Source of the DNA: a virus
IMG/VR virus record: IMGVR_UViG_3300031616_000018
Coordinates: 1-35,336 of that record
Direction: 5' to 3' (one strand)
Length of the DNA: 35,336 bases
Positions 2,859 to 4,728 of the stretch are shown in pieces; within the stretch, counting starts at the first letter, position 1; every line of letters starts with the position of its first letter. Under the pieces are notes generated by a model that saw nothing but the letters and a program-made list of their open reading frames with translations, was not told where the DNA came from and made no database searches. The translations under genes were made by a program, and so were the position numbers.

Positions 2859-3179
2859 ATGGCCAGTTACAAGACGATGTGGCAGGAGGCGGTCGGCGAA
2901 GTCGAACGGCTGAGAGGCGAAGTCGAACGGCTGGCGGGCGAAGTCGAACGGCTGACACAGCCCCGGCAGATCGTGGACCTGGCCGGCATCGCCCGGCACA
3001 TGCACGTCGAGAGGTTCACGCCGCAGCAGTGGAAGCAGCGCAAACACCTTCCCCCAGTCGACTTCCCGGAAATCAAGGAACCCCTCTGGTACGCCGCGAC
3101 GATCCGCGAGCACTTCGCCGACCGCACGCATCGGATCTGGTACGACGACCCCGAGCAGGAGCTGTCGCCCGCCGCCTGA
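2859..3179 (+). CDS. coiled-coil plus excisionase/MerR-like HTH regulator
   Basis: The protein has 106 residues. Residues 10-33 hold heptads built on EVERL repeated three times, giving a short coiled coil for dimerisation. The rest (about 40-90: LAGIARHMHVE, then QQWKQRKHLPPVDFP, and WYAATIREHF) matches the layout of AlpA/excisionase-type winged helix-turn-helix proteins: helix pair, basic turn, wing ending in W-x-tIrehF. It starts at the divergent region with the palindrome at 2782-2797, so autoregulation is plausible. The heptads are encoded by a 21-base DNA repeat. It could be an excisionase, an activator or a replication-control protein; no integrase is seen in the window. Confidence 0.75.
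   Translation: MASYKTMWQEAVGEVERLRGEVERLAGEVERLTQPRQIVDLAGIARHMHVERFTPQQWKQRKHLPPVDFPEIKEPLWYAATIREHFADRTHRIWYDDPEQELSPAA
2895..2954 (+). repeat. three 18-bp units at 21-bp period inside the regulator gene
   Basis: GGCGAAGTCGAACGGCTG occurs exactly at 2895-2912, 2916-2933 and 2937-2954. The 21-base period equals one protein heptad and about two helical turns of B-DNA. The units are identical at synonymous positions, which suggests recent duplication or selection on the DNA itself. Confidence 0.9.
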
Positions 3180-3194
3180 CGGGTGCACAATGAA

Positions 3195-3225
3195 CAGCGC
3201 CCCGGGTTGGAAGCCCGAGGCGCTG
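3195..3225 (+). terminator. hairpin after the regulator gene, probable terminator
   Basis: CAGCGCC (3195-3201) pairs with GGCGCTG (3219-3225), and CGGG (3203-3206) pairs with CCCG (3214-3217), with one C-A mismatch between the stems and a TTGGAAG loop. It starts 16 bases after the stop at 3179. There is no T-run behind it, so it may be a partial terminator or a processing site before the initiator gene. Confidence 0.5.
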
Positions 3226-3322
3226 AAGGTGAAGCAGAACAGGTCGCCACCTGCACCCAGGAGTCTACCGACGCCATACAGGCTCGGCAACTCCCGAGGG
3301 TGCCCTATCTGAAAGAGGCACC

Positions 3323-4108
3323 TTGTCTAACAAGGCAACCAATTGGGCTCAGGCTCAGCACGTCGGCCACAGCGGCGCGAAGTTTGTCCTGCTGGTGCTT
3401 GCCGACTACGCCGACCAGGACTGGTCGTGCTTCCCCTCGGTCAAGGTCATCTCCCAGATCACCGAGATGGGCGAGAGCAGCGTGCGGAAGGCGCTCGCGC
3501 TGCTCACGTCGAACGGCCTCATCCGGAGCTTCGTGCGGCGGCGGGACGACGGATCCCAGCGCTCCAGTCGATACCAGCTCTTGCCTGATGGTGACGGAAC
3601 CCCGGAACCGGAGGTCTGTGACTGGTCCCACCAGCGGTCCACCCGAGAGCCCCCCCTCTCTGAGGGAGCGCCCCCCCCTCTCCCTCAGAGAGGGGGGCCC
3701 CTCTCTGAGGGAGCGCTTATTCCTTATATAGATCCATCACCAGTAGATCCATCACCACTTACCCCCGGCGCTTCGCGCACGGCGAAGGCGACTCGACTTC
3801 CCGACGACTTCCAGCCCACCGAGGAAATGCGGAACTGGTTCGTCGCCGAGAACCTGCACAACGCCATCCCGGACCCCCGCACGGAGCACGCCACGTTCTG
3901 CGACTACTGGCGCGCCAAGGCCGGCGCCGGCGCCCGGAAGGTGGATTGGCCTGCCACCTGGCGCAACTGGATGCGCAGGGCCGCGAACGACGTCAATCGG
4001 AGCACCTACCGCAACGCGACCGTAGCCGCATGCAAGCCCAGCACGACCGACCAGAGGATCGCCCAGGGCCAGGCCCTGGCCGCCAAGTACAGGGAGCAGG
4101 GACTGTGA
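3323..4108 (+). CDS. winged-helix replication initiator (phage O/DnaD-like)
   Basis: The protein has 261 residues. The start is a TTG at 3323 with AAAGAGG four bases upstream. Residues 15-88 form a winged helix-turn-helix (SGAKFVLLVLADYAD, then FPSVKVISQ and SSVRKALALLTSNGLI) as in phage replication initiators. A Pro-rich linker (about 100-155) holds two copies of PLSEGA. The C-terminal part (about 158-228: DDFQPTEEMRNWF, FCDYWRAKAG, WPATWRNWMRRA) matches the domain of O/DnaT-type initiators that contacts helicase or loader. The linker DNA contains hyphenated palindromes, inverted and direct repeats and an AT-rich tract, which look like an origin inside the gene. It overlaps the next gene as GTGA. 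Confidence 0.82.
   Translation: MSNKATNWAQAQHVGHSGAKFVLLVLADYADQDWSCFPSVKVISQITEMGESSVRKALALLTSNGLIRSFVRRRDDGSQRSSRYQLLPDGDGTPEPEVCDWSHQRSTREPPLSEGAPPPLPQRGGPLSEGALIPYIDPSPVDPSPLTPGASRTAKATRLPDDFQPTEEMRNWFVAENLHNAIPDPRTEHATFCDYWRAKAGAGARKVDWPATWRNWMRRAANDVNRSTYRNATVAACKPSTTDQRIAQGQALAAKYREQGL
3650..3760. other. candidate replication origin inside the initiator gene
   Basis: Three hyphenated palindromes CCCTC-N3-GAGGG lie at 3654-3666, 3682-3694 and 3699-3711. A 19-bp direct repeat is exact at 3653-3671 and 3698-3716, and 3680-3695 is the inverse of 16 bases of it, so alternative hairpins can form. Immediately after comes an AT-rich stretch (TTATTCCTTATATAG, 3717-3731), rare here, and a 14-bp direct repeat TAGATCCATCACCA at 3729-3742 and 3744-3757. 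Phage lambda's ori lies in the same way within gene O. The protein tolerates these repeats because this part encodes the linker. Confidence 0.6.
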
Positions 4109-4728
4109 ACCTTTCCGAGACCGCCGATCTTCTGACCGCCATGAGTGCGTACGACCGCCGGACCATCGGCGACGGTGACGTGATCGCCTGGCAGGCCATC
4201 CTCTCCGACGCGTCTTTCGATGACTGCCTGGAGGCGGTGAAGCAGCACTACGCGGAGCACACCGAGTGGATCATGCCCGCGCATGTGCGGCGTGCTGTCC
4301 GTGACATGGTGAGCCAGCGGGAGATGGCCGCGCGGGCGACGGGGTGGGCGCCGGGCCAGCACGGGGTGCCGAAGGACCAGGCGATGCCGGAGATCGCCGG
4401 GCCGGTCGACGAGGGCTCCATCTCCGGCCCGGTCCGGGCGTTGCTGGACTCGGTGCGGGCGATGCTTCCGGAGGGCTCCAGGGAGGCGCTGATGCCTCGC
4501 GCGGCGTACTGGGGTCGGGAGCACCGGGCGTTCGTGCGTACCCGCGACGGCGAGCCCAATCCGCTCTACAGGCCGAAGGCCGGTGCCGCCACGGTGCATC
4601 TGGTGCATGACGGCTCCGGTGCCGCCACGTGCTGCCACCGCACGCCGTTCGAGCTTCCGCTGGGCGAGTGCATCACCACCGACCCGCTGGCCGCCACCTG
4701 CACGGGTGACCCGAAGGTGACGTCGTGA
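4105..4728 (+). CDS. replication-associated protein, helicase-loader position
   Basis: The protein has 207 residues; the GTG at 4105 overlaps the initiator stop as GTGA. The N-terminal part (about 1-70: LLTAMSAYDRRTIGDGDVIAW, split as LLTAMSAYDRR and GDGDVIAWQAIL, then VKQHYAEHTEWIMPAHVRR) matches a family that I associate with actinophage initiator genes. The C-terminal 40 residues hold a His/Cys cluster (HLVHDGSG, then CCHRTPFELPLGECITT) that could bind zinc. Its place directly after the initiator fits a helicase loader, but no ATPase motif is visible, so the role is inferred from position. Confidence 0.7.
   Translation: MNLSETADLLTAMSAYDRRTIGDGDVIAWQAILSDASFDDCLEAVKQHYAEHTEWIMPAHVRRAVRDMVSQREMAARATGWAPGQHGVPKDQAMPEIAGPVDEGSISGPVRALLDSVRAMLPEGSREALMPRAAYWGREHRAFVRTRDGEPNPLYRPKAGAATVHLVHDGSGAATCCHRTPFELPLGECITTDPLAATCTGDPKVTS

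Follow-up and report, generated by a model that had tools for sequence, protein, structure and literature searches.

A putative replication origin within the linker-encoding region of a phage HTH_36 initiator gene

Initiator gene and repeat array

We have analyzed a 35,336-nt stretch of viral DNA (IMG/VR record IMGVR_UViG_3300031616_000018, positions 1 to 35,336), referred to here in its full length as the window. The analysis concerns a repeat array at about 3650-3760, inside a gene predicted to encode a replication initiator, which a sequence-only reading had likened to the lambda origin in gene O. The gene, the repeat units (iterons) and the tract adjoining them are as follows.

3323..4108, + strand: initiator gene, identified by an HTH_36 match, PHROG replication-initiation matches and an AlphaFold model
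3654..3672, + strand: iteron 1, CCCTCTCTGAGGGAGCGCC, placed by repeat search, palindrome count and register with relatives
3676..3694, + strand: iteron 2, CCCTCTCCCTCAGAGAGGG, its register set by comparison with relatives L186, L187 and L022
3699..3717, + strand: iteron 3, CCCTCTCTGAGGGAGCGCT, at the distance to the AT-rich tract seen for the last iteron of 11 relatives
3717..3757, + strand: AT-rich tract and candidate DNA unwinding element, TTATTCCTTATATAGATCCATCACCAGTAGATCCATCACCA, including both 14-bp direct repeats

The initiator product contains an HTH_36 domain (E=8e-13) and matches phrog_1032, 1408, 391 and other families annotated as replication initiation or O-like, with E values down to 1.5e-26; for the O-like phrog_391 the value is 3e-16. 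In the AlphaFold model a winged helix (aa 1-88) and a C-terminal helical domain (aa 150-258), with pLDDT mostly >90 in both, are joined by a linker (about aa 103-143) that is predicted to be disordered (pLDDT <50 at 103-115, 123-135 and 137-143). The domain and family matches and the predicted fold thus bear out the earlier description of a winged-helix replication initiator. With its N-terminal HTH_36 domain and conserved C-terminal W..TWRNW domain, the protein is, as judged from its sequence, a member of the HTH_36 phage replication initiators (phrog_1032 and related). A PDB fold search returned generic winged helices only, none at E <0.001, and a BLASTN search of phages matched just part of the C-domain. 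The repeat array encodes the disordered part of the linker, in which the two PLSEGA copies reported earlier are both present in the translation.

The window contains exactly three copies of the palindrome CCCTC-N3-GAGGG, all of them in the array (3654-3666, 3682-3694 and 3699-3711), the second carrying the same core on the other strand. The chance expectation is 0.08 per whole window, none of 100 shuffles gave three copies, and a search of the whole window allowing up to 2 mismatches found no others. The segment 3680-3697 holds inverted copies, 16-18 bp long, of a 19-bp direct repeat (3653-3671 and 3698-3716). A second direct repeat, of 14 bp (TAGATCCATCACCA), occupies 3729-3742 and 3744-3757. 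TTATATA, at 3724-3730, lies inside a tract that ranks among the most AT-rich of the window: positions 3717-3736 are 75% AT, and equally AT-rich 20-base segments number 4 among ~35,300 in this GC-rich sequence. All of these elements had been picked out in the sequence-only reading, and each was recovered, the palindromes far above chance.

The array reads best as three iterons of ~19 bp starting at 3654, 3676 and 3699. In this register, which is that of the relatives described below, spacings of 22 and 23 bp replace the irregular distances between palindrome centres (28 and 17 bp). Iteron 2 contains both the inverted palindrome core (3682-3694) and CCCTC-N9-GAGGG (3676-3694), a form found in relatives, and because of this form the start of the middle unit was set at 3676; the start at 3678 returned by an automatic register search (spacings of 24 and 21 bp) was set aside. 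In the AT-rich tract, TTCCT and GA..CATC are kept in relatives. No DnaA box was found within one mismatch at 3000-4500. The repeats were also compared with a null in which synonymous codons are permuted, leaving the protein unchanged and destroying the repeats. The window linker has 93 repeat-covered bases, compared with a null mean of 2.8 and maximum of 54, and none of 2000 shuffles reached 93.

Repeats across the initiator family

Relatives of the initiator were obtained by alignment searches, since single-sequence searches of viral and genome contigs gave none. There are ~200 in all, of which 144 non-redundant relatives were used for repeat coverage, 142 genes for the codon shuffle, 120 loci for spacing and 208 linkers for a more sensitive test. 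The close relatives (L022-L024 and L182-L191) come from viral metagenomes and share 39-56% best-segment identity with the window initiator; the more distant ones are from phages and bacterial genomes. The C-domain motif WRNW served as the anchor for aligning the genes, and the linker zone is defined as -350 to -200 from it.

Local repeats cover 15-28% of the linker zone, compared with mostly 0.3-1.5% upstream and downstream. The number of repeat-covered bases is 6000, whereas the codon shuffle gives 514 (sd 84), a ~12-fold excess. In the sensitive test, 110 of the 208 linkers scored above all 20 of their codon shuffles (~10 expected), and a 14/16 repeat pair was present in 171 of the 208. In both window and relatives the codon-shuffle null lies far below the observed repeats, which favors the earlier view that selection in the linker acts on the DNA instead of the protein. 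Repeat spacings peak at 11-12, 22-23, 33, 44-45 and 66 bp, the helical repeat of DNA; the signal is stronger at period 11 (nR2=51.5) than at period 3 (nR2=15.3), and the spacing is not a multiple of 3 in 70 of 120 loci. Family-wide, there is an AT excess of 0.12-0.13 in the 20 bases that follow the last repeat. The close relatives have about three to five iterons of ~19 bp, mostly 21-24 bp apart, and the distance from the end of the last one to a conserved TTCCT, with which the AT-rich tract begins, is constant. Linker length varies among relatives and repeat sequences differ between subfamilies, for example those of Pam5, Bcep176 and Panchino. In Pseudanabaena phage Pam5 (L002, 1501-2166) the initiator frame is open and contains iterons, yet the gene is unannotated in the deposited record. 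Overall, these comparisons suggest that an in-gene iteron layout is common in this initiator family.

Iteron similarity follows the N-domain of the initiator (partial r 0.545, corrected for the C-domain) far more closely than it follows the C-domain (partial r 0.082), with a permutation p of 0.0005 for each. When only pairs with near-identical C-domains are considered (ratio at least 0.8), iteron sharing drops from 0.87 for agreeing N-domains to 0.06 for differing ones. Of the winged-helix segments, the recognition helix predicts the iterons best, with a partial r of 0.250 when the other segments and the C-domain are held, compared with 0.130-0.179 for the wing. The wing codons lie nearer to the repeats, and yet the recognition helix predicts them better, which speaks against linkage as the sole cause. 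In the close clade, CCCTC-type iterons accompany VRK in the helix in 6 members and GGAGC-core iterons accompany VRN, VRS, VRA or IRD in 6 others, a contrast that comes from related sequences and serves as illustration and not as a test. Conservation of the repeats in relatives had been named beforehand as a check, and its outcome was positive: the repeats are linker-specific, go beyond what the protein sequence requires, are helically spaced and co-vary with the N-domain.

The initiators of L022 and L024 are 99% identical in the C-domain and 74% in the N-domain. Their flanking DNA on both sides is mostly 95-100% identical, or about 97% around the gene, while the HTH part and the iterons are 50-93% identical; the two form a natural recombinant-like pair with differing HTH-plus-iteron segments. 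Comparison of the relatives shows the DNA-binding domain and its presumed sites to be inherited and exchanged as one cassette, since the two adjoin in one gene.

Probable origin function and alternative explanations

The gene that follows the initiator is relevant to the function of the array.

4105..4728, + strand: candidate helicase loader gene, overlapping the initiator stop, identified by fold match only

The N-terminal part of the AlphaFold model of its product matches SPP1 G39P (1no1; Z 10.1, rmsd 1.2, 63 of 67 residues), and the model also matches lambda P in its complex with DnaB (9oa1; Z 8.5). A profile search with the sequence found no solved relative and there was no Pfam match. The assignment as a helicase loader is strong but not conclusive, because the modeled fold is small and helical. 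The candidate adjoins the initiator in 10 close relatives. The locus thus combines tandem repeats within the initiator coding sequence, an adjoining AT-rich tract and, by fold, a loader candidate next door, which is the lambda/SPP1-type layout.

We conclude that the linker-encoding DNA at ~3650-3760 is very probably the replication origin of this phage, used by its own initiator. This conclusion is drawn from the linker-specific repeats, the codon-shuffle null, the helical spacing, the co-variation with the N-domain, the AT excess, the initiator family and the loader fold. The N-terminal winged helix would bind the iterons, probably with each pseudo-palindromic iteron taking up about two copies, as for lambda O. 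Bound repeats about two helical turns apart would lie on one DNA face, so that the array could bend the DNA and strain the AT-rich tract downstream. By analogy with lambda and SPP1 this tract would then open, and the C-terminal domain and the loader candidate may recruit the replicative helicase. Several points weigh against such an origin. The iterons are degenerate or absent in some relatives, so that, as far as these sequences go, the repeats are not universal. GC skew, which had been proposed as a check, shows no clear switch at the array and gave no usable switch point in the window. Part of the co-variation could stem from physical linkage of neighboring DNA, and the unwinding and loading steps are ones that we infer.

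Self-regulation is frequent among initiators, and the repeats might be an operator for autorepression by the initiator, with replication starting elsewhere. Binding by the HTH domain would fit the co-variation data, and an operator is compatible with an origin, so that both may hold. However, operators are seldom located deep in a gene beside a conserved AT-rich tract, whereas this is the usual position of the sites in an in-gene origin, and the palindrome has no other copies in the window; we therefore regard an operator in place of an origin as improbable. Still less probable is that the palindromes are a centromere (parS). Two adjacent genes for ParB-like proteins, which may act in partition or as nucleases, lie upstream of the initiator on the minus strand (657-1436 and 1433-2326), and the first of these proteins has a close relative, 56-85% identical, in all 9 of the 9 close phages tested. 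In the relatives compared, however, the repeats follow the ParB-like gene neither in occurrence nor in sequence. Linker repeats are present in Pam5, Gingerbug, Bcep176 and Panchino, none of which has a phrog_1033 match, and L022/L184 and L024/L192 differ in their iterons in spite of 89% identity in the ParB-like protein. The iterons instead track the recognition helix of the initiator, and on these sequence comparisons the ParB-like proteins are the less likely iteron binder.

The repeats might also have expanded neutrally in a linker free of constraint, or have been selected for the encoded peptide (PLSEGA, PSPVDPSP), which would suit a segment that is predicted to be disordered and tolerates changes in length. 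This explanation does not sit well with the codon-shuffle null, with helical and often out-of-frame spacings, with the co-variation with the recognition helix or with the fixed distance from last iteron to AT-rich tract, and we consider it about as improbable as a centromere. The least probable alternative is that the mRNA forms a hairpin controlling the expression of downstream genes. RNA from the window folds very stably (-55.7 kcal/mol, z -5.8), but this is due to the inverted middle copy of the window phage; relatives with all copies in the same orientation have different structures and weaker z values (-1.7 to -4.4).

Among the neighboring genes, an ERF-type annealing protein is encoded after the loader candidate. 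On the other side of the initiator, a small protein is encoded at 2859-3179 (+ strand). It contains a heptad-like GEVERL repeat in tandem, arising from near-identical DNA repeats, and weakly matches a family of phage DNA-binding proteins.

Comparison with known origins

In lambda the origin occupies a central part of gene O. It comprises four iterons, each an 18-bp hyphenated inverted repeat, at spacings of 20-24 bp, with an AT-rich tract after them (PMC7466680, PMC6022878). The window locus resembles it in the position of the proposed origin in mid initiator gene, in the order of iterons and AT-rich tract and in a gene directly downstream for a loader, P in lambda and the loader candidate in the window. 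Lambda O binds its iterons, as the window initiator would. The repeat arms are also alike, TCCCTC-AAAAC-GAGGGA in lambda (L262, 2035-2119) and CCCTC-N3-GAGGG in the window, a striking likeness that may be due to chance. The spacer differs, however, being N5 in lambda and N3 or N9 in the window phage, which has three iterons to lambda's four. Lambda O itself gives PF04492 (Phage_rep_O); the window initiator has no match to this family, only to HTH_36, and lambda O has no significant match to the profile of the initiator family (hhalign probability 1.5). No homology of the initiator to lambda O is detected by these searches, and the arms are alike in spite of this. The analogy with gene O therefore stands for layout and proposed mechanism and does not extend to detectable homology of the initiators.

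In the Bacillus phage SPP1, oriL is located within gene 38 and the loader is gp39 (PMC6316719). The in-gene layout is shared, and it is the solved gp39 structure that the window loader candidate matches (Z as given above); SPP1 differs in having a second origin, oriR, while no second set of the iterons was found in the window. Actinobacterial phages also have HTH initiators, and for these a lambda-like location of the origin, inside repA, has been proposed, although that origin was not mapped to repeats (PMC7157519). Several mycobacteriophage RepA-like initiators with the C-terminal domain type of the window also have linker repeats, but many of the mycobacteriophage relatives have another N-terminal domain. 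The kind of origin described here is thus already known from the lambda and SPP1 layouts, to whose initiators the HTH_36 family is only distantly related. Neither the window origin nor the family-wide pattern was found in the open-access papers searched, which does not show them to be undescribed.

Throughout the family, which spans phages and prophages of both actinobacteria and proteobacteria, these loci may be self-contained origin cassettes of domain and iterons that are exchanged through recombination at the linker. The iteron sequence would then be set by the recognition helix, and origin specificity could perhaps be read from sequence alone; for this broader proposal we consider the case evenly balanced. 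Most origins of actinobacterial and environmental phages are unmapped, and here an origin may be located from sequence. The initiator gene is often annotated merely as a 'helix-turn-helix protein', and behind this label there would be a large family with the lambda/SPP1 layout and no detectable homology to lambda O. Its linked domain-plus-iteron cassettes would provide material for origin plasmids and for a code relating recognition helix to iteron.
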